From Halorussus marinus (GTDB taxonomy: Archaea; Halobacteriota; Halobacteria; Halobacteriales; Haladaptataceae), in contig NZ_SBIV01000005.1 in NCBI RefSeq assembly GCF_004765795.1, forward strand, positions 124,001-188,000: a DNA stretch of 64,000 nt, written 5' to 3'. Positions 2,622 through 46,000 of this stretch are shown here, piece by piece; the first letter of the stretch is position 1; each line of letters begins with the position of its first letter. A program made the translations under genes and the position numbers. Under the pieces are notes generated by a model, which saw only the letters and a program-made list of their open reading frames with translations, ran no database searches and was not told the DNA's origin.

Positions 2622-2720
2622 GACCGTCGATCGCGATCCTCCGGCCGACGGGACGGCGGGCCCCGGCAGTCCGGGCCCCCAAGGTCAACCTTCATGGCCC
2701 CGTGCGACAGATGTGGTACT

Positions 2721-3749
2721 ATGACACAGGCCGCATACGAACCCGTCGAATCGCCCGACGCCACGACGGTGTTTCCGTACCACGACCTCACGCCGCCGAC
2801 GACGAGAGACGTCTACGAGGCCCGCCCGACCGTGCGAGACCACCTGCCGAAGACGCCGCTGGTCCGCAGCGAGTACCTCTCGGCGGAGCTCGACGCCGAC
2901 GTGTACCTCAAGCGCGAGGACACCCTCCCGACCGGCGCGTTCAAGGTCCGGGGCGGGGTGACGCTCGGCGCCCGCCTCGACGAGGAGTTTCGCGAGCGCG
3001 GGCTCATCGCGGCCAGCACGGGCAACCACGGCCAGTCGGTCGCCTACGCCGGCCGGACCTTCGACGTGCCGGTCACCATCGCGGTCCCCGACGACCCCAA
3101 CCCGGGCAAGGTCCGGTCGATGGAGCGGCTCGGCGCGACCGTCCTCGAGCGGGGCGCGAGCTACGACGTCGCCCGCGAGTGGGCCGAACAGCGAGCCGCC
3201 GAGGAGGGCTACCGCTACGTTCACTCGGCGAACGAGCCCGACCTGATCGCGGGCGTCGGCACCGCCGGCCTCGAAGTGCTCGACGAACTCCCCGACGTCG
3301 ACGCGGTGTACTGCCCGGTCGGCGGCGGGAGCGGCGCGGCGGGCTACTGTCTCACGCTCGGCGCGATCGCCGACGCTCGAATCGTGGGCGTGCAGGCCGC
3401 GGGCGCCGACGCGGTCTACCGTGGGTTCCACGAGGGCCACCTCGAACCCGGCGACGGCACCGACACGACCGCCGAGGGGATCGCCTCCCACGTCCCGTTC
3501 GCGCTCACGATGGACGTGATGTGCGACCGACTCGACGACCTCGAAACCGTCACCGACGAGGAGATCTGGGACGCCGTGAGGGCGACGTTCCGCGAGGACA
3601 ACCTCACCGTCGAGGGCGCGACGGGCGCGGGCATCGCCGCCGCGCTCCGGGCCGGCGAGGATCTCGCGGGCCAGACGGTCGTGATTCCGGTCACGGGCCG
3701 GAACGTCGCGGCGGACAAACTGGTCGCGGCGCTGGAGGGGGATCGATGA
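2721..3749 (+). CDS. Threonine/serine dehydratase-family PLP enzyme
   Basis: This is a 342-residue fold-type II PLP enzyme. The Schiff-base lysine is K75 in LPTGAFKVRGG. The phosphate/substrate loop is STGNHGQS, and the glycine-rich PLP phosphate loop is CPVGGGSGAAGY. There is no C-terminal ACT domain, so it resembles catabolic dehydratases and the hydroxyectoine-catabolism EutB branch rather than the regulated biosynthetic IlvA. ATG 2721 is preferred over ATG 2694 because the sequence before it is not conserved-looking. Its stop overlaps the start of the M20 amidohydrolase gene (ATGA), which implies a shared pathway degrading an amino-acid-like compound. Which one is not visible. Confidence 0.8.
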   Translation: MTQAAYEPVESPDATTVFPYHDLTPPTTRDVYEARPTVRDHLPKTPLVRSEYLSAELDADVYLKREDTLPTGAFKVRGGVTLGARLDEEFRERGLIAASTGNHGQSVAYAGRTFDVPVTIAVPDDPNPGKVRSMERLGATVLERGASYDVAREWAEQRAAEEGYRYVHSANEPDLIAGVGTAGLEVLDELPDVDAVYCPVGGGSGAAGYCLTLGAIADARIVGVQAAGADAVYRGFHEGHLEPGDGTDTTAEGIASHVPFALTMDVMCDRLDDLETVTDEEIWDAVRATFREDNLTVEGATGAGIAAALRAGEDLAGQTVVIPVTGRNVAADKLVAALEGDR

Positions 3750-5086
3750 GCGACGCCGCCGACCCCGACTCCGCGGCCGGCCGGACGCCCGTCCGCGAAC
3801 GCCTCTCGGCGCTCCGACGGGAGTTCCACCGCTACCCCGAGCCCGCGTGGCGGGAGTTTCACACCACCTGCAAGCTCGTCGAGGAGATCGAGGGGATCGG
3901 CGTCGACGACCTGTTCGTCGGCCGCGACGCGATGGCGCCCGACGAGCGCATCGCGGTCCCCGACGACGACGAACTCGCCGAGTGGCGCGAGGCGGCCCGC
4001 GACCGGGGCGCGGACCCCGACCGCCTCGACCGGCTGGACGACTGTACCGGCGCGGTCGCGGTGCTCGATCGGGGCGAGGGCCCGACGGTCGCGCTCCGGG
4101 TCGACATCGACGGGCTGATCCGGGCCGAATCGACCGCCGACGACCACGTCCCGGCCGCCGAGGGGTTCCGATCGGAGAACGAGGGCGTGATGCACGCCTG
4201 CGGTCACGACGCCCACATGACGGTCGGGCTCGCGGTGCTCGAAGCGATCAAAGACAGCGACTTTTCGGGGACGTTCAAGGTGTTCTTCCAGCCCGCCGAG
4301 GAGAAGGCCGGCGGCGCGCGCCCGATGGCCAAAGGCCCCCATATCGCGGACGTCGACTACCTGTTCGCGCTCCACGTCGGGCTCAACCATCCCACCGGCG
4401 AGGTGGTGGCCGGGATGGTCGAGCCGCTCGCGGTCACCAGCTTCGACCTCGAGTTCCGGGGCGAGTCGGCCCACGCCGGTCTCGCGCCAAACGAGGGCCG
4501 CAACGCGATGCAGGCGCTCGGCACCGCCATCGAGAACGCCTACGCGATCCCGCGCCACGAGGACGGCGCGACCCGGATGAACATCGGGAAGGTCGCGGGC
4601 GGGACCGCCTCGAACATCGTCGCCGAGCGCGTCGACGCCGAGGCCGAGGTCCGCGGGGAGACCACCGAACTGATGGAGTACACCCGCGAGCGCTTCGAGC
4701 GGGCGGTTCGGGGCGCCGCCGAGATGCACGACTGCGAGGTCGAGATCACCGTCGAGGGACAGGCGCCCCGGGCCGACAGCGACCCCGAACTCGCGGGGCT
4801 GGTCCACGAGGCCGCGTCGGGCCACGCCGACGTCACCGACCCGATCGAGTCGGCCCCCTTCGGCGCGAGCGAGGACGCCACCTTCCTGATGGACGCGGTC
4901 CAGCAGAACGGCGGGGCGGCCGCCTACGCCATCGTGGGCACCGACCACCCGACCGGTCACCACACCGCGACGTTCGACGTCGACGAGGCCACCATCCCGA
5001 TCGCTGTCGACGTGCTGACCGACGCGGTGCTGGCGGCGTTCGAACGCGATCCCCTCGGACGCGCCGGCCCCGACGGCTCGGCGTAA
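3746..5086 (+). CDS. M20-family amidohydrolase (AbgA/hippurate-hydrolase-like)
   Basis: This 446-residue metallohydrolase has the zinc-site motif MHACGHDAHMTVG and the catalytic glutamates in FQPAEEKAGGARPM. The dimerisation-domain hallmark is FDLEFRGESAHAGLAPNEGRNAM. The final zinc histidine lies near DHPTGHHTATFDVDE. These proteins hydrolyse N-acyl or aromatic-acyl amino acids such as p-aminobenzoyl-glutamate or hippurate-like amides. It is translationally coupled to the upstream PLP dehydratase. A plausible reading is that it releases a free amino acid which the dehydratase then deaminates. Confidence 0.85.
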   Translation: MSDAADPDSAAGRTPVRERLSALRREFHRYPEPAWREFHTTCKLVEEIEGIGVDDLFVGRDAMAPDERIAVPDDDELAEWREAARDRGADPDRLDRLDDCTGAVAVLDRGEGPTVALRVDIDGLIRAESTADDHVPAAEGFRSENEGVMHACGHDAHMTVGLAVLEAIKDSDFSGTFKVFFQPAEEKAGGARPMAKGPHIADVDYLFALHVGLNHPTGEVVAGMVEPLAVTSFDLEFRGESAHAGLAPNEGRNAMQALGTAIENAYAIPRHEDGATRMNIGKVAGGTASNIVAERVDAEAEVRGETTELMEYTRERFERAVRGAAEMHDCEVEITVEGQAPRADSDPELAGLVHEAASGHADVTDPIESAPFGASEDATFLMDAVQQNGGAAAYAIVGTDHPTGHHTATFDVDEATIPIAVDVLTDAVLAAFERDPLGRAGPDGSA

Positions 5087-5128
5087 CGTCTCCGGCCGCT
5101 TCGGTCGCCGTCGCGCGGTGACCCGGCG

Positions 5129-5371
5129 CTACCGCTGGTTCTTTCGTCGCTGCTCTTCGGCCTCGGCCTCGTACTTGCGGGCGGTCCGCTCGTCCTGGAG
5201 CTTTCGCTTGTACTCCCAGTAGCCGGCCACGATGACGAGCACCCCGAGGGCCGCGCCTCTGAGCGGCGTCCCGGCCAGCGAGAAGTAGGCGAACGCGCCG
5301 ACGGCGAACAGAATCGAGAGCCCGAGCGTCATCTTCGCCCATCCCTGCCGGGGCACCCGACGGTCGTCCAT
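5129..5371 (-). CDS. Small two-helix membrane protein
   Basis: This 80-residue protein has a polar N-terminus, two adjacent hydrophobic helices (MTLGLSILFAVGAFAYFSLA and LRGAALGVLVIVAGYWEY), and a highly charged tail (KLQDERTARKYEAEAEEQRR) that would form a cytoplasmic helix. The ATG at 5371 is preferred because a longer frame upstream lacks coding character and overlaps the promoter zone of the divergent M81 gene. I do not recognise the family. Function is unknown. Confidence 0.6.
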   Translation of the reverse strand: MDDRRVPRQGWAKMTLGLSILFAVGAFAYFSLAGTPLRGAALGVLVIVAGYWEYKRKLQDERTARKYEAEAEEQRRKNQR

Positions 5372-5449
5372 ACCCCGGGATTCCGGGGCCTCGCGTATCA
5401 AAGTTCGCCTTTCTCCGGACTTATGTCGCCGCCCGTCTAACTGACGTGC

Positions 5450-6982
5450 ATGACCGACGAGACGGTCGTCGTGGGGGAGTTCTCCCACGAGACCAACACG
5501 TTCGCGGCCCGGCCGACCGACCGGGCGGCGTTCGCCGACCGCCGAGAGTACGTCGGCGCGGCGCTACTTGACGCGCTCCGCGGGACCAACACGACGGTCG
5601 GCGGCGTCGTGGACGCCGCCGAGGATCGCGATCTCGACCTCGTGGCGAGCGTCGCGGCGGCCGCCACGCCGGGCGGGATCGTCACCGCCGACGCCTACGA
5701 CTTCTACGTCGAGGAGATCCTCTCGACGGTCCGGTCGAACGCCGCGGACCTCGACGGCGTCGTGCTCTCGCTCCACGGCGCGATGGTCCCCGAGGACGGC
5801 ACCGACGGCGAGGGGCCGCTCCTCTCGGCGGTCCGGGAGGCGGTCGGCCCCGATGTGCCGGTGGTCGCCACCCTCGACCTCCACGCCAACGTCACCGACG
5901 AGATGGTGGCCGCCGCCGACGCGCTGGTCGCGTTCGAGACCTACCCCCACGTCGACACCGCCGAGACCGGCCGGCGCGCGACCGAACTGCTCGTCGACCT
6001 GCTTCGGGACGACCGCGAGCTCTCGATGCGGATCGAGCGCCCCCCGATGTTGCCGTACGGCCCGCTCCAGAACACCCGGTCGGGGCCGATGGCGGAGGTG
6101 ATGGCGACCGCCCGCCGGTTCGAGGGCCGGGACGGCGTCGCGAAGGTCAACGTCTTCCCCGGCTTCCACAAGGCCGACGTGCCCGCGATGGGGTGTTCGG
6201 TCGTGTCGGTCGCCGACGACGCCTCGGCCGCCGAGTGGGCCGCCCGCGACCTCGCGGCCGAGCTCTGGGAGATGCGCGAGGCGTTCGTCGGCGAGTTCCC
6301 CGACCCCCACGACGCGGTCGGACGGGCGCTCCGGAGCGAGGCGGTCGCCGACCCCGAGGCCGGCCCGGTCGTGCTCGCGGACAGCGGCGACAACCCCGGC
6401 GGCGGCGGCACCGGCGACGAGACCGCGATCCTGCGCGAACTCGTCGACCGCGGCGCGACCAACGCCGGCATGGCGCTGCTGGCCGACCCCGAGGCGGTCG
6501 CGGCCTGCCTCGACGCGGGCGTCGGCGAGCGAGTCACCGTCTCGCTCGGGGGCCGGGCCGACGGCTCGTTCACCCCGCCGATCGGCGACGTCGACGGCTA
6601 CGTCGCGGCGATCACCGACGGCGAGTTCCGCAACACCGGCCCGATGGCGACCGGCACCGAGAACCACCTCGGGCGGACCGTGCTGTTCCGGTGTGGCCGC
6701 GAGGACGGCGTCTCGGTCGTCCTGACCGAAAAGCGGATCCAGCCCCTCGACGCCGAAATCTGGCGCCACGTCGGGGTCGCGCCCGAGCGCCTCGACGTGA
6801 TCGCGGTCAAGTCGAACAACCACTACCGGGCGAGCTACGAGCCGTTCGCGAGCGAGATCATCACGGTCAACAGCCCGGGCGTGGCGGCGTTCGACCCCCA
6901 CCAGTACGACTACCGGCGCATCGACCGGCCGGTGTTCCCCCTCGACGAGATGGCCGCCGACGACTACCCCGACTGGTACTGA
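5450..6982 (+). CDS. M81-family metallopeptidase (MlrC/microcystinase C-like)
   Basis: This 510-residue protein starts with VVVGEFSHETNTFAARPT, the family hallmark. The putative metal ligands lie in DLHANVTDEM and FETYPHVDTAETGRRA. A conserved ADSGDNPGGGGTGDET loop near residue 310 precedes the C-terminal MlrC domain, which contains VVLTEKRIQPLD and VVKSNNHYR-like segments. Family members hydrolyse linear peptides or amide-containing small molecules. In most prokaryotes they sit in amino-acid or amide catabolic loci, not toxin degradation. It stands alone between divergent and convergent genes. Confidence 0.85.
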   Translation: MTDETVVVGEFSHETNTFAARPTDRAAFADRREYVGAALLDALRGTNTTVGGVVDAAEDRDLDLVASVAAAATPGGIVTADAYDFYVEEILSTVRSNAADLDGVVLSLHGAMVPEDGTDGEGPLLSAVREAVGPDVPVVATLDLHANVTDEMVAAADALVAFETYPHVDTAETGRRATELLVDLLRDDRELSMRIERPPMLPYGPLQNTRSGPMAEVMATARRFEGRDGVAKVNVFPGFHKADVPAMGCSVVSVADDASAAEWAARDLAAELWEMREAFVGEFPDPHDAVGRALRSEAVADPEAGPVVLADSGDNPGGGGTGDETAILRELVDRGATNAGMALLADPEAVAACLDAGVGERVTVSLGGRADGSFTPPIGDVDGYVAAITDGEFRNTGPMATGTENHLGRTVLFRCGREDGVSVVLTEKRIQPLDAEIWRHVGVAPERLDVIAVKSNNHYRASYEPFASEIITVNSPGVAAFDPHQYDYRRIDRPVFPLDEMAADDYPDWY

Positions 6983-39131: not shown

Positions 39132-39500
39132 ATGCATTCTGTCCTGATCGCCGACGACGACGAGGAGATGCGCGAACTTCTCACCTTCAAACTGCAGAAC
39201 GGATACGACGTGACGGCCGTCTCCGACGGCGCCGAGTGCTGGAACCGGCTGGATACGGCCGCCGACGACCTCCCCGATCTGGTGGTGCTCGACGTCATGA
39301 TGCCCGGACTGAACGGGTATCGGGTCCTCGACCGGATGGACGGCGACGATCGGTTCGACGACCTCGAAGTCATCATGCTCACCTCCCGCGGGAAAGAAGA
39401 CGACATCGTCCGCGCGCTCGAAGCCGGCGCGACCGACTACATGACGAAACCGTTCTCGGCGAACGAACTCCTCGCGCGAATAAAGAGAGTACTCGAATGA
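39132..39500 (+). CDS. Receiver-only response regulator
   Basis: This 122-residue CheY-like protein consists of a receiver domain alone, with the acidic pair in IADDDEEMRE, phosphoacceptor D54 (VVLDVMMPGLNGYRV), T84 (IMLTSRGKEDD) and K106 (DYMTKPF). There is no output domain. Its stop overlaps the ATG of the HEAT-repeat gene (ATGA). The output is therefore probably through contact with the co-encoded HEAT protein or glycosyltransferase. The nearby histidine kinase is a candidate phosphodonor. Confidence 0.92.
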   Translation: MHSVLIADDDEEMRELLTFKLQNGYDVTAVSDGAECWNRLDTAADDLPDLVVLDVMMPGLNGYRVLDRMDGDDRFDDLEVIMLTSRGKEDDIVRALEAGATDYMTKPFSANELLARIKRVLE

Positions 39501-40588
39501 ACGGTACCTCGGCCGTCTCCGTCGAGACGCTCTCTCTGATCGGCGCCGTCGTGACCAGCCTCCTCGCCGTCGTCGGCCTGATCACGATCGGTCGATCCGT
39601 CCTGACCGCTCGACGCGACCGACGAACCGCGCAAGCGCGCGGGCAGATTCGTCGGGCGTTCCTCGAACGGATGGAGGCGACCGACCCGGCGTGGGACGAC
39701 TGGGTGACAGAGCTGAACGAGACCGAACGACGCGTCGCACAGGATCTCTTACGGGAGTACCTCGAACGGGTACGCGGGCGCGATCGGCAGTCGCTTCAGC
39801 GCCTCGGCTACGCGCTCGGCCTCGATCGGCGGGCCCGGCGCAAACTCCGCGAGGGAGACCGGTTCGAACGGCGGTGGGCGCTCAACTGGATCGCCCGCCT
39901 CGACGTCGATGTCCCGACGGCGTCGCTCGAGCGGACGTGTGAGAAGCATCCGGACGCGAGCGCCCCGGTGGCCCGGGTGCTCTACGAACAGGACCGCCCG
40001 GAGGCGGCGCGCATCGGGACAGAGCTGTTGCTACGCGGGTCCCGGCCGCTGTCAGTGCTCGGCGTGGACTCGCTCTACCAGCTCAACAAGCTCTCGCCCG
40101 CGCCGCTGTTCGAACGCGCGACGAGCTCGTACGACGAGTGGTCCGAGTCGCGACTCATCCAGGTACTCAGGGTGATCGGCGAAGCGGGCCCGGCGAACCC
40201 CGACACGTCGCTGGGGTGGATCGGCTTTCTGTTCGTGAGCAGTTCACCGGCCGTCAGAGCGGCGGCGGCCGAGTCGCTCGTCGGATACGGCTGGCACGAG
40301 GACGTTCGGGCCGCGGTCGACGTCGAGCGGATCCGAACCGACGAGTCGCCGCGGGTCCGAGGGGCGATCTACCGGATGCTCGGCACCTGGCAGGACGAGG
40401 CGTCGACGGCGGCGCTCCTCGCGGCCGTCGGCACCGAGACGGACCCGCGGTCGGCGATCGACGCGATTTCGGCGCTGGGCGAGCGTGCGAGAGACCTCGA
40501 CGAGACCGAACTGAGCGCCGCCAGCGCCGCCGCCAGAGAGTGGGTGCTGGCGTCGACCGAACCGACAAAGACCGAGGCGGTGCGATGA
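39497..40588 (+). CDS. HEAT-repeat protein with N-terminal membrane anchor
   Basis: This 363-residue protein has one transmembrane helix (TLSLIGAVVTSLLAVVGLIT, residues ~11-30) and a basic linker, then alpha-helical repeats over ~60-350. The clearest HEAT-type copies are SPAVRAAAAESLVGYGWHED, SPRVRGAIYRMLGTWQDEAS and DPRSAIDAISALGERA. It overlaps both neighbours by ATGA and so is made together with the response regulator and glycosyltransferase. The repeats probably act as a protein-binding platform linking phosphorylated regulator to the membrane enzyme. That role is inference. Confidence 0.8.
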   Translation: MNGTSAVSVETLSLIGAVVTSLLAVVGLITIGRSVLTARRDRRTAQARGQIRRAFLERMEATDPAWDDWVTELNETERRVAQDLLREYLERVRGRDRQSLQRLGYALGLDRRARRKLREGDRFERRWALNWIARLDVDVPTASLERTCEKHPDASAPVARVLYEQDRPEAARIGTELLLRGSRPLSVLGVDSLYQLNKLSPAPLFERATSSYDEWSESRLIQVLRVIGEAGPANPDTSLGWIGFLFVSSSPAVRAAAAESLVGYGWHEDVRAAVDVERIRTDESPRVRGAIYRMLGTWQDEASTAALLAAVGTETDPRSAIDAISALGERARDLDETELSAASAAAREWVLASTEPTKTEAVR

Positions 40589-41994
40589 CGTCCGTCGGCG
40601 ACGCGCTACTCCTGATCGGGTGGGTGGTTCTGGGGTACTACCTGGTGGTCAACGGCGTCTATCTGATCGTGCATATCGCGGCGCTGTACGGCGTCCGGAC
40701 CGACCTAAAAAAGCGTGCCGCGGGGACGATGTACCAGCGGTTCGCCTCGCCTTTCTTCCCCGGCGTGACCGTCGTCGTTCCGGCGTACAACGAGGAGGCA
40801 GTCATCGTCGAGAACGTCCAGTCGCTGTTGAACCTCAACTACCCGGAGCTCGAGATCGTGGTCGTCAACGACGGCTCGGACGACGCGACGCTCTCGGAGC
40901 TCCGTTCGGCGTTCGACCTCCGGCGGATCGACGCCCCGGTCCCGTTCGACGTCCCCAGCGAGCCGATCGAAGCGGTGTATCGGTCCGACGACGCCCCCAC
41001 CCTCCGGGTCGTCGATAAGGTAAACGGCGGTCGGGCCGACGCGGTGAACGCGGGAATCTGGCTCGCCGACCAGCCGCTTTTCTGTACGATCGACGCCGAC
41101 TCGATCATCGACAGGGACGGGCTCTTGCAGGCGGTCGAACCGTTCTTGGATCGCCCGGAGGAGACCGTCGCGACCGGCGGGACGATCCGCGTCGCGAACG
41201 GCTGTTCGATCGATAACGGGACGATCGAATCGGTCGACCTCCCGGAAAGCAGGCTGGCGGGCCTTCAGACGATGGAGTACCTGCGGGCGTTTTACTCCGG
41301 GCGACTGGGACTCGATCGGCTGAACGCCCTGATGTTGATTTCGGGCGCGTTCGGCGTGTTCCGGACCGACCTCGTCCGCGAGGTCGGCGGGTACGAGACC
41401 GCGAGCGTGACCGAGGACTTCGAGCTGACCCTGCGTCTGCACCGGTACCTCCGGGAGCGAGACCGGGAGTACAACGTCGAGTTCGTGCCCGAGCCGGTCG
41501 TCTGGACCGAAGTCCCAGAGTCGCGGGCCGCGTTCAGCCGACAGCGACGCCGGTGGTATCGAGGACTCCTCGACACGATGGCTCGCCACCGGCGGATGAT
41601 CGGTCGTCGACGGTACGGCTCGCCCGGCGTGTTCGGCTACCCCGCCTTCCTGCTCGCGGAGGTCTTCGGACCGCTGGTCGAGGGGTTCGGGTACGTGATC
41701 GTGCCCCTGGCGTTCGCGGTCGGGGCCGCGGACGCGTCGTTCATGCTCCTGTACTTCGGGCTCACGGTCGGGGTGGGCGTGCTCCTGTCGTGGTTCGGAA
41801 TCCTCAGCGAAGTCTGGAGCTTCAGGCGGTACGACCGACCGATGCAGGTCCTCCGTCTGCTTGGCCACGGCGTTCTGGAGAACTTCGGGTTCAGACAGTG
41901 GAAGACCCTGATCGCGTGGCGGGGGCTCTACGAGTATCTCCGCGGCGAGACGTCGTGGGGTGAGATGCGCCGCTCCGGGTTCGACGCCGACTGA
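40585..41994 (+). CDS. Processive family-2 glycosyltransferase (PgaC/hyaluronan-synthase-like)
   Basis: This 469-residue membrane enzyme has an N-terminal transmembrane region (about 5-35). A GT-A catalytic domain follows with VTVVVPAYNEE, VVVNDGSDD, the DxD motif D170-A-D172 (CTIDADSII), TED (276-278) and Q-RRRW (320-324), and several C-terminal helices. TED plus QxxRW is diagnostic of processive polysaccharide synthases such as PgaC/IcaA, hyaluronan or cellulose synthase. It would make an extracellular polysaccharide from UDP-sugars. No deacetylase or export gene is adjacent. Coupling to the receiver and HEAT genes suggests signal control. Confidence 0.88.
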   Translation: MTSVGDALLLIGWVVLGYYLVVNGVYLIVHIAALYGVRTDLKKRAAGTMYQRFASPFFPGVTVVVPAYNEEAVIVENVQSLLNLNYPELEIVVVNDGSDDATLSELRSAFDLRRIDAPVPFDVPSEPIEAVYRSDDAPTLRVVDKVNGGRADAVNAGIWLADQPLFCTIDADSIIDRDGLLQAVEPFLDRPEETVATGGTIRVANGCSIDNGTIESVDLPESRLAGLQTMEYLRAFYSGRLGLDRLNALMLISGAFGVFRTDLVREVGGYETASVTEDFELTLRLHRYLRERDREYNVEFVPEPVVWTEVPESRAAFSRQRRRWYRGLLDTMARHRRMIGRRRYGSPGVFGYPAFLLAEVFGPLVEGFGYVIVPLAFAVGAADASFMLLYFGLTVGVGVLLSWFGILSEVWSFRRYDRPMQVLRLLGHGVLENFGFRQWKTLIAWRGLYEYLRGETSWGEMRRSGFDAD

Positions 41995-42094: not shown

Positions 42095-45000
42095 ATGGCT
42101 CGTACAGATGTCGGGATCCCTGACTCCATTCACGTTCTGTACGTGAACGACGACGAGGGGTTCGCGGAGTTGACCGAGACGAAACTCCTGAGTCTCTCGT
42201 CGTCCTTCGAAGTCACGACCGTCGACACCGCGGCCGCGGCCATCGACCGGGTCGACTCGGCCGCAGTCGACTGCGTGGTGACCTCCTACTCGCTGGCGGA
42301 CGGGACAGGGATCGACCTCCTCGAACGACTGGGAGCCGACGGCTACGAGCTTCCGACGATCCTGTTTACCGGTCGTGGAAGCGAGCGGATCGCGGGCGAG
42401 GCGACACAGGCGGGCGTCTCCGATTACATCCCGATCCGGTCCGACCACGACAGCTTCGAGTTGCTCGCGCGCCGCGTCCGGACGCTCGTCGAGGCCGCCC
42501 GGAAGGAAGCGGTCGCCGAACGGATCTCCGACCGCTTCGAGCGGACGCTCGAACGCGCGACCGACGCGATCTACGCCGTCGACGACGAGTGGCGCATCGA
42601 GTACATGAACGAGAAGATGGCCGACCGCGTCGACTGCGACCCGGACGCCGTCGTCGGGACGACGCTCTGGGAGTCGTTCCCGTCGATCGTGGGCACGGAG
42701 CTCGAACGCCGATACCGAACCGCGATGCAGACCGGCGAATCCCGGACGTTCGAACACCGGATCGGAGCCCCGTTCGACTACTGGGTCGAGATACGGGTGT
42801 TTCCCGACGACGACGGCCTGACCGTCTTCTCCCGGGAGATAACGGCCGAGCGCGAGCGAGAACTCGATCTGGAGCGGAGCGAGACGATCCTCCGGAACAT
42901 CCACGACGCCGTGCTCGTCCTCGACGACGAGGGGGTCGTGCAGTTCACGAACGCGGCCGCCGAACGGCTTGTCACCGGCGAGCAGTCGACCCAACTCGAG
43001 GGCCGAGCGCTCGAGGTGGTCGTCGGCGACCGGCTGGCTGAGTCGGACGCCGAGCGGTTCTCGGCCGCCGTCGAGTCGACGCTGAACGAGATCGAGAGCG
43101 ACGGCGGGGTCACCGGCCTGTACGATTCGGACCTCAAACTCGACCTCGAAGTCGGCGGCCGCGACCGCTCGTTCGACGTCCGCTTTACGCCGTTCCGGAG
43201 CCGAGAGACCAAACGCGTGCTCGTCGTCGCCCGAGACGTCACCGAACAGCGCGAGGCCAACCGACGGTTAGAGCGCGAACGCGACTCGCTCAGGGAACTC
43301 CAGTCGGTCATGGCCGAGAGCGACGTCGCCGCCGAGACCCGCCTCCGCAGGCTGTTGGAAGTCGGCTGTCGGACCCTCGATCTCGAAATCGGGATAGTCT
43401 CGCACGTCCGGGGCGACGACTACGCGGTCAGGGCGGTTCACGCGCCCGACGCCGAGATCGAGGCCGGGGATCGGTTCGACCTCGAATCGACGTACTGCGA
43501 GGAGGTCGTCGGGACCGACGCGGTCTGTTCGTTCGCCGACGCGGTCGCAGACGGAAAGGAGACCCATCCCGCCTATCGCGAGTTCGAACTGGCGTCGTAC
43601 ATCGGCGCGCCCCTCGTCGTCGACGGCGAGCGCTACGGGACGGTCAACTTCTCGAGTCCGACCGTGCGGGACGCCGAGTTCGGGCGGCTCGAACGGACGT
43701 TCGTCGAACTGCTGTCCGAACTCGTCAGCGCGGAGATCTCGCGAGGGCGGGACCGCACCGAACTCGAACGCCAGGAGTTCCTGTTCGAACGCGTCCAGGA
43801 CATCGCGGACATCGGCGTCTGGGAGTACTTCCCGTCGACGGGCGACGTCCGGTGGTCGGCGGGCGTCCGAGAGATCCACGGCGTCGACCCCGAGTACGAG
43901 CCCACGCTGGACGACGCCATCGAGTTCTACCACCCCGCCGACAGGGAGACGATATCGGCGGCGGTCGACCGGGCGATCGAGGAGGGCGAGTCGTACGATC
44001 TCGACCTCCGGGTGGTCCGGACCGACGGCGAGGTGCGCGACGTCCGCGCGTGGGGCGAGTGTGTCGATGCCACCGCACGCGGCGACGTCGTGCTTCGCGG
44101 AGTGTTTCAAGACATCACCGAGCGAAAGGCCCGCAAGCGCGGCCATCAGGAACTCGCCGAGGAGTACGAGGCGCTGCTCGACACCTCCGGGGACGCGATC
44201 TTCCTGCTCGACGTCGACGAGACCGAGGGGGACCCGTCCTTTGAGTTCGCTCGGCTCAGTCCGGGCTACGAGACCCAGACCGGGCTCACGACCGAGCAGG
44301 TCCGGGGCCAGTCGCCCCGAGAGGTGTTCGGCGACGAACGGGGCGCCGAGCTCGCGTCGAACTACACCGCGTGTGTCGAACAGGGCGGCCCGATCTCGTA
44401 TCGCGAAGAGCTCGACATCGACGACGACGCGCGGTTCTGGGACACCAGCCTCGCGCCGGTCGTCGTCGACGGCGAGATCGTCCGTATCGTCGGCATCGCT
44501 CGGAACGTGACCGAACAGGTCGAGCGAGAGCGCGACCTCGAGACGACCAACGAGCGACTGGAGTCGCTCATCGAGGCGACGCCGCTGACCGTGATGGAGA
44601 TCGACACCGACGGAACCGTCGTCCGGTGGAACGACGAGGCCGAACAGATGTTCGGCTGGTCGCGCGAGGAGGTGCTCGGCGAACTCAATCCGATCGTCCC
44701 GGACGAGCGCCAAGCGGAGTTCGCGTCCCACCGACAGCGCGCCCTGAACGGCGAGCGAATTCGGGGCAAAGAGATACGACGGGAGACCAAAGACGGCGAG
44801 GAGCTTAATCTACTCCTGTCGGTCGCCCCGATCACCGACCCGGACGGCGAGATTTCGAGCATCCTCGCGGTCCTCGAAGACATCACCGAACAGAAGCAAC
44901 TAGAAGCGAAGCTCCGCTCGCTTCAGGAGACCGCCCAGCGGCTCAGCGGCGCCCAGTCGAGCGACGAGATCGGCGCCATCGCCATCGACGCCGCCGTCGA

Positions 45001-46000
45001 GATTCTCGGATTCGACCTCACCGCGATCTGGGAGTCGGCCGACCAGTCGGACGCGCTCGTCCCGCTGGCGGCCAGCGACGCCACGGAAGACGCGATCGAC
45101 GAGTTGCCGCGATTGGAGGCCGGCGAGAGCCTCGCGTGGGACGCGTTCGAGCAGTCCGATCTCCGGGTGTACGACGACCTGCAGGCCGAGCCCGCCCTCG
45201 ATGAGTCCGCTTCGGATCTCGTGAGCGGCCTGTTCGTTCCCCTCGGCGAGTTCGGGCTCCTCGGGGTCGGGACGCCGGAGAAAGACGCGTTCTCCGAGAC
45301 CGACGCCGATCTCTTCCGGATACTGGGCGCGACCGTCGAGGCGGCGTTCGCGCGGGCGAGCCGGGAGGTCCAACTCCAGCGCCAGAACGAACGGCTCGAC
45401 GAGTTCGCGAGCGTCGTGGCCCACGACCTCCGAAACCCCCTCTCGGTCGCCAAGGGCTTTCTCGACGTGGTCGGCGAGACGGGCGAGCTGGAGCATCTCG
45501 ATCGGATCGAATCGGCACACGACCGCATGGAGCGGCTCATCGAGGACCTCCTCACGCTGGCTCGCGGCGAGTCGACGGTCACGGACCCCGAGCGCGTCGA
45601 CCTCCGGAGCGTGACGACCGAGGCGTGGGGGTACGTCGACACCGACGAAGCGACGCTCACGGTCGCAGATGGCGTTCCCACGGTGGTCGGGGACGGCAGT
45701 CGGCTGACACAGCTGTTCGAGAACCTCTTCAGAAACGCGGTCGAACACGGCGGGGCGGCCGTCACGATCACCGTGGGCCCGCTCGACGCGGCGGAGGGGT
45801 TCTACGTCGAGGACGACGGCGAGGGGATCGCGCCAGAGAAACGCGACGAGATATTCGACTACGGCGTCACGTCCACCGAGGGCGGGACCGGCTTCGGGCT
45901 CTCGATCGTCGCCGACATCGCGGCGGCCCACGGCTGGACGGTGTCGGTGACAGACGGCTCGGACGGCGGCGCCCGCTTCGAGTTCGTCGCGGCCGAGTGA
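42095..46000 (+). CDS. Multi-PAS/GAF histidine kinase with degenerate receiver
   Basis: This is a 1301-residue cytoplasmic-type kinase. Residues ~10-135 form a receiver whose phosphoacceptor Asp is Ser64 (DCVVTSYSLADG) and whose conserved Lys is missing (DYIPIRSD), so it is a pseudo-receiver. Then come about five PAS domains and two GAF domains: PAS-PAS-GAF-PAS-PAS-PAS-GAF by eye. A HisKA domain with H1110 (ASVVAHDLRNPLSVAK) and a HATPase domain with ENLFRNAVEHG, DDGEGIAP and GTGFGLSIV follow. No transmembrane segment. The ATG 42095 is chosen because the frame upstream is not conserved-looking. It likely senses redox, light or small ligands and may phosphorylate the receiver at 39132-39500. 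Confidence 0.9.
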   Translation: MARTDVGIPDSIHVLYVNDDEGFAELTETKLLSLSSSFEVTTVDTAAAAIDRVDSAAVDCVVTSYSLADGTGIDLLERLGADGYELPTILFTGRGSERIAGEATQAGVSDYIPIRSDHDSFELLARRVRTLVEAARKEAVAERISDRFERTLERATDAIYAVDDEWRIEYMNEKMADRVDCDPDAVVGTTLWESFPSIVGTELERRYRTAMQTGESRTFEHRIGAPFDYWVEIRVFPDDDGLTVFSREITAERERELDLERSETILRNIHDAVLVLDDEGVVQFTNAAAERLVTGEQSTQLEGRALEVVVGDRLAESDAERFSAAVESTLNEIESDGGVTGLYDSDLKLDLEVGGRDRSFDVRFTPFRSRETKRVLVVARDVTEQREANRRLERERDSLRELQSVMAESDVAAETRLRRLLEVGCRTLDLEIGIVSHVRGDDYAVRAVHAPDAEIEAGDRFDLESTYCEEVVGTDAVCSFADAVADGKETHPAYREFELASYIGAPLVVDGERYGTVNFSSPTVRDAEFGRLERTFVELLSELVSAEISRGRDRTELERQEFLFERVQDIADIGVWEYFPSTGDVRWSAGVREIHGVDPEYEPTLDDAIEFYHPADRETISAAVDRAIEEGESYDLDLRVVRTDGEVRDVRAWGECVDATARGDVVLRGVFQDITERKARKRGHQELAEEYEALLDTSGDAIFLLDVDETEGDPSFEFARLSPGYETQTGLTTEQVRGQSPREVFGDERGAELASNYTACVEQGGPISYREELDIDDDARFWDTSLAPVVVDGEIVRIVGIARNVTEQVERERDLETTNERLESLIEATPLTVMEIDTDGTVVRWNDEAEQMFGWSREEVLGELNPIVPDERQAEFASHRQRALNGERIRGKEIRRETKDGEELNLLLSVAPITDPDGEISSILAVLEDITEQKQLEAKLRSLQETAQRLSGAQSSDEIGAIAIDAAVEILGFDLTAIWESADQSDALVPLAASDATEDAIDELPRLEAGESLAWDAFEQSDLRVYDDLQAEPALDESASDLVSGLFVPLGEFGLLGVGTPEKDAFSETDADLFRILGATVEAAFARASREVQLQRQNERLDEFASVVAHDLRNPLSVAKGFLDVVGETGELEHLDRIESAHDRMERLIEDLLTLARGESTVTDPERVDLRSVTTEAWGYVDTDEATLTVADGVPTVVGDGSRLTQLFENLFRNAVEHGGAAVTITVGPLDAAEGFYVEDDGEGIAPEKRDEIFDYGVTSTEGGTGFGLSIVADIAAAHGWTVSVTDGSDGGARFEFVAAE

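Follow-up and report, generated by a model that had tools for sequence, protein, structure and literature searches.

A conserved receiver-HEAT-glycosyltransferase cassette in Halobacteria as a candidate two-component switch for polysaccharide synthesis

Genes and features of the locus

The window analysed is a 64,000-nucleotide stretch of Halorussus marinus DNA (contig NZ_SBIV01000005.1), to which all positions refer. Three plus-strand genes encode a stand-alone receiver (REC, 39132-39500, 122 aa, PF00072), a membrane-anchored HEAT-repeat protein (39497-40588, 363 aa, PF13646) and a glycosyltransferase (GT2) membrane synthase (40585-41994, 469 aa, PF13641). The REC/HEAT and HEAT/GT2 junctions are both ATGA overlaps, as the original prediction had stated. 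That prediction overlooked two features. Directly 3' of GT2 on the same strand, starting 100 bp past its end with no overlap, lies a 1301-aa histidine kinase with the architecture REC-PAS-GAF-HisKA-HATPase (42095-46000). There is also a dip in G+C content, with 64-69% between 39 and 46 kb versus 71-77% in most flanking kilobases, and the kinase shares this lower-G+C stretch with the cassette.

The REC matches PF00072 over its full length (99.7 bits, 1.4e-28), and the receiver-only assignment holds. It is a single domain with the DD, D, T/S and K residues of a stand-alone response regulator, namely D9/D10, the phospho-acceptor D54 (codon 39291-39293), T84 and K106; nearly every aligned cassette REC retains D9, D54, K106 and T/S84. 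In a tree with 16 further REC domains from the same genome, the cassette RECs fall into a single clade of their own (SH-aLRT 87). The model for haloarchaeal chemotaxis CheY (CheY_Halo, NF041367) gave 69.7 bits, below its cut-off of 200.

The HEAT protein scores 37.3 bits against PF13646 (HEAT_2, cut-off 27.7) and is predicted to fold as an all-helical solenoid (pLDDT 74.6), as expected of a HEAT-repeat protein. A fold search against the PDB returned no match at E ≤0.001; the weak matches included many HEAT/ARM proteins. The anticipated one-helix anchor is present as a single N-terminal hydrophobic segment, predicted from hydropathy to be a transmembrane helix (aa 14-32, 39536-39592, plus strand), and such a helix is common to cassette HEAT proteins.

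GT2 scores 89.1 bits against PF13641 (cut-off 27) and has hydrophobic segments at its N terminus and at about aa 355-413. The DxD, TED and QxxRW motifs read from the sequence earlier were located at D170-A-D172, T276-E277-D278 and Q320-R-R-R-W324, and with D96 (in NDGS) they place the protein among the PF13641-type processive synthases; the motifs are kept in at least 96% of the aligned cassette GT2 proteins. No NCBIfam equivalog scored GT2 above its cut-off. The best profile was PgaC/IcaA (TIGR03937; 120.3 bits, cut-off 422.3), with NodC and CelA lower (CelA 60 bits, cut-off 699). In a few cassettes, e.g. in Halosolutus, GlmS and a sugar nucleotidyltransferase adjoin GT2; they do not do so in the window. 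Taken with the closest profile, these neighbours are a pointer from which we guess UDP-HexNAc as the substrate. Pfam found no PilZ, MshEN (c-di-GMP-binding) or DNA-binding domain in the REC, HEAT and GT2 proteins of the window, in line with the earlier remark that a c-di-GMP (PilZ) domain is absent.

Distribution, neighbours and inheritance of the cassette

The original prediction had staked its case on synteny beyond one species and on a synthase that does not act independently of its neighbours. Among 391 Halobacteria genomes, the window HEAT query gave strong matches in 61, with three further weak partial ones, and the GT2 query gave matches at E ≤1e-60 in 61. The two sets of genomes are identical (61 = 61; the tables were compared by hand and the counts are not phylogeny-independent). 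They span 24 genera and 66 loci. HEAT is adjacent to GT2 at every one of these (66/66), and by a hand tally REC lies directly upstream at 65 of the 66; it is diverged at one locus (L078) and missing from another (L077). In the 65 REC-bearing haloarchaeal loci the order is always REC-HEAT-GT2, the gaps are often -4, and REC and HEAT frequently overlap by ATGA. A search widened to the phylum, at E 1e-50, matched nothing outside this order. Bacterial versions exist as well (below), and synteny is thus conserved well beyond one species.

Several genomes hold multiple diverged cassettes: G269 (L055, L074, L079), G321 (L042, L043), G387 (L036, L092) and G115 (L022, L078). GT2 or HEAT frames are broken in L051, L160, L164, L165 and L082, through decay or sequencing error. 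Outside the 61 genomes GT2 leaves a single trace, in G070, a broken remnant that lacks HEAT.

Kinases or kinase-like genes, of several kinds, are frequent neighbours of the cassettes. We scanned 21 downstream genes with Pfam, hand-picked with co-directional genes enriched and the window kinase counted, and therefore not a random sample; HisKA and HATPase were found in 14, and 13 of these also have GAF. Nineteen upstream genes, likewise not random and picked mainly for overlapping or closely preceding REC, gave HisKA in 13, REC in 11 and HATPase in 4. In 12 upstream HisKA-like proteins the phospho-accepting His is replaced by Tyr or Phe (L055, L058, L060, L062, L063, L065, L067, L068, L069, L071, L075 and L076). 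Since HATPase occurs in only 4 of the 19, most of the Tyr/Phe proteins look like pseudo-kinase adaptors. The window kinase, judged by its Pfam domains, its G+C content and the recurrence of kinases beside the cassette, is a candidate phospho-donor for REC. Its own N-terminal REC domain apparently lacks the phospho-acceptor Asp (CVVTSYSL).

A further neighbour, which we call c4, is a secreted lipoprotein of about 720-880 aa with no Pfam assignment (L056:4435-6699 and relatives; L040:2-2155; L086:429-2651 and 2638-5763; L085:3304-5760; L089:3679-5766). The haloarchaeal proteins begin with a Tat-lipoprotein-like signal (RRRF...GC) and share the motifs GIEWPP and AEFG. As searches of PDB, NCBIfam and Pfam with a c4 profile gave nothing useful, a glycoside-hydrolase-like reading draws on these motifs by eye: they may correspond to the acid/base and nucleophile of clan GH-A. 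c4 occurs in 45 of the 391 genomes, 43 of which carry the synthase (Fisher p about 3e-40, uncorrected for relatedness); the remaining two matches are fragments. It is absent from the window genome.

The three genes appear to share a history. Distance matrices of the REC, HEAT and GT2 trees correlate at r 0.81, 0.81 and 0.87, shared species history contributing to these values. For each of the three cassettes of G269, REC, HEAT and GT2 share one set of nearest relatives; in G321 the nearest relatives match for L043, while L042 is not clean. Host families are intermixed in the GT2 tree. By these comparisons, the cassette transfers between families as one unit. The nearest named relative of the window operon is Halovenus aranensis, and the window copy clusters with Halovenus (GT2 86% identity) and a Salinirubellus plasmid instead of with its own family. 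This placement suggests horizontal transfer, and the copy was probably imported. We found no clean empty insertion site in the sister species, where the two genes that flank the window copy are not neighbours.

Bacteria offer a natural fusion: on a contig of a Treponema MAG, a single 952-aa ORF holds both HEAT and GT2. An overlapping upstream gene there carries REC and a GGDEF-like domain (its motif degenerate by eye), and c4 precedes. Relatives on plasmids are arranged as REC-TPR-HEAT-GT2 in Erythrobacter, REC-YaiO barrel-HEAT-GT2-Hpt in Mesorhizobium, REC-TPR-HEAT-GT2-Hpt in Devosia (GT2 in pieces), TPR/c4-HEAT-GT2 in Deinococcus and YaiO-HEAT-GT2 in Legionella. Also on plasmids are HEAT-GT2 pairs in Planococcus, Bacteroides and Paenibacillus and, in Emticicia, a set made up of REC, one unnamed gene, GT2 and YaiO. 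No neighbouring REC was seen at the Firmicute, Legionella, Bacteroides and Deinococcus loci. HEAT-GT2 can thus exist without REC, and HEAT may be structural; from this survey we take HEAT-GT2 to be the core and REC an addition. Diderms may have added an outer-membrane component. Several lineages added c4, which sits beside the HEAT-GT2 genes in Treponema, Paenibacillus, Deinococcus and Planococcus. A structure model of the Treponema fusion was of low confidence and unusable (pLDDT 48.7), because the alignment took in only the window and related-locus sequences.

Working model and alternatives

The perfect co-occurrence, the natural fusion and the congruent trees strongly support the coupling of HEAT to GT2, and on such comparisons their partnership is well supported. 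GT2 itself is a putative polymer-making, exporting synthase, for which the TPR/YaiO and lipoprotein neighbours are indirect support. The best reading of the cassette, to which we give a probability of roughly 0.55, is a synthase for an exported polysaccharide, with HEAT as obligate subunit and two-component gating through REC phosphorylation. A histidine kinase, often cassette-adjacent, would phosphorylate D54 of the dedicated REC. Phosphorylated REC would engage a complex of the synthase and its docked partner subunit, the one-helix-anchored HEAT protein, and alter its activity. GT2, a processive enzyme with its own transmembrane segments, would polymerise a nucleotide sugar (UDP-HexNAc being a guess) at the cytoplasmic face and extrude the chain.

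REC lacks a DNA-binding output, which argues that control is post-translational, and with no output domain, protein-protein contact is the simplest route. The one-helix anchor of HEAT and its fusion to GT2 in Treponema make HEAT the likeliest receiver of that contact. We infer the gating of the synthase by REC, along with the physical docking, the action of REC through HEAT, the sign of the regulation, the substrate and the polymer. In the form originally predicted, phosphorylated REC would bind HEAT, and HEAT would then switch GT2 on.

The main rival to contact through HEAT is direct contact between REC and GT2, since REC-GT2 fusions, for which no HEAT is described, are reported in Methanobacteriaceae (PMC5847659). 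HEAT would then be a constitutive assembly or export subunit (cf. BcsB, PgaD and IcaD), and REC would act on GT2 or its delivery. We consider this unlikely, although a serious contender, and the bacterial HEAT-GT2 pairs with no neighbouring REC speak for it. The invariant REC-HEAT-GT2 order with its frequent REC/HEAT overlap, and the agreement of the REC and HEAT trees, can be set against it, but they do not separate the two options, REC and GT2 agreeing equally.

Many haloarchaeal GT2s glycosylate lipid or S-layer components. That GT2 does the same and makes no polymer, with HEAT as a scaffold, is improbable, even though no equivalog profile reached its cut-off. It carries the full D, DxD, TED and QxxRW set with transmembrane segments on either side, and its top profile is PgaC/IcaA, ahead of CelA and NodC. 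What is more, TPR/YaiO proteins adjoin the synthase in diderm relatives, and the synthase is linked to a lipoprotein with a Tat signal, c4.

REC might also be a passenger of the operon, a CheY-like regulator aimed elsewhere or a phosphate sink, sharing the transcript for timing only. Stand-alone RECs account for about 40% of the response regulators in archaea, mostly with unknown targets (PMC5847659), which lends this idea some background. It is nevertheless very improbable for a REC that is kept at all but one of the 66 loci, falls in a single clade with a congruent tree, is co-transferred, and is also present in the alphaproteobacterial and Treponema loci. Finally, the HEAT gene, and with it the cassette, is missing from the whole remainder of the window's own family (27 genomes), as might be expected of chance neighbours or a one-genome artefact, but its occurrence in 61 genomes and across domains refutes this, and the patchiness fits horizontal transfer.

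With gating through REC phosphorylation still the favoured reading, we also consider, at somewhat under even odds, a broader proposal. It posits a cross-domain class of synthases in which the HEAT solenoid would be the regulatory subunit that reads REC phosphorylation, so that two-component signalling would exert direct control over polymer synthesis, in archaea with no part for c-di-GMP, and in many members with a dedicated extracellular lipoprotein enzyme. The analysis names c4 as an uncharacterised partner family that follows the synthase across domains.

Comparison with known systems

A 2018 census states that most archaeal stand-alone receivers are found outside any conserved gene neighbourhood, which precluded inferring what they do (PMC5847659). 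CheY-type archaeal RECs are, like the cassette REC, single domains with an intact phosphorylation site, but the cassette REC is dedicated to one conserved synthase operon. The cassette thereby ties one stand-alone REC clade to one enzyme and provides a testable target. A comparable archaeal system is MTH_548 of Methanobacteriaceae, in which a receiver is coupled to a BcsA-like PF13641 glycosyltransferase (PMC5847659). Unlike the cassette, it is a single fused polypeptide of one methanogen family, with no HEAT reported. REC and GT2 are separate ORFs in the window and its relatives, and the fusion seen in Treponema is HEAT-GT2, not REC-GT2. In the literature searched, neither a HEAT-GT2 nor a REC-HEAT-GT2 system is described; with most subscription papers outside that scope, this is weak evidence of novelty.

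The poly-GlcNAc synthase PgaC/IcaA has the GT2 fold, motif set and transmembrane arrangement of the window GT2, but in the cassette a HEAT partner and REC replace PgaD and c-di-GMP. The cellulose synthase BcsA is also a processive GT2 with D, DxD, TED and QxxRW and is gated post-translationally; the window GT2 differs in having no PilZ domain and a CelA score far below the cut-off. In NfrB/NfrA of E. coli, a locally gated GT2 exopolysaccharide synthase works with an outer-membrane partner, much as proposed for the cassette and its diderm relatives (PMC8669469). Its gating, unlike that proposed for the cassette, is by c-di-GMP through MshEN, and the same paper mentions no HEAT repeat protein. 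In its proposed working the cassette resembles these PilZ- and MshEN-gated synthases but, judged by its domains and profile scores, belongs with neither. It looks like an undescribed switch for polysaccharide production based on phosphorylation, not c-di-GMP, and would add a third post-translational gate for processive GT2 synthases beside c-di-GMP binding by PilZ and by MshEN.
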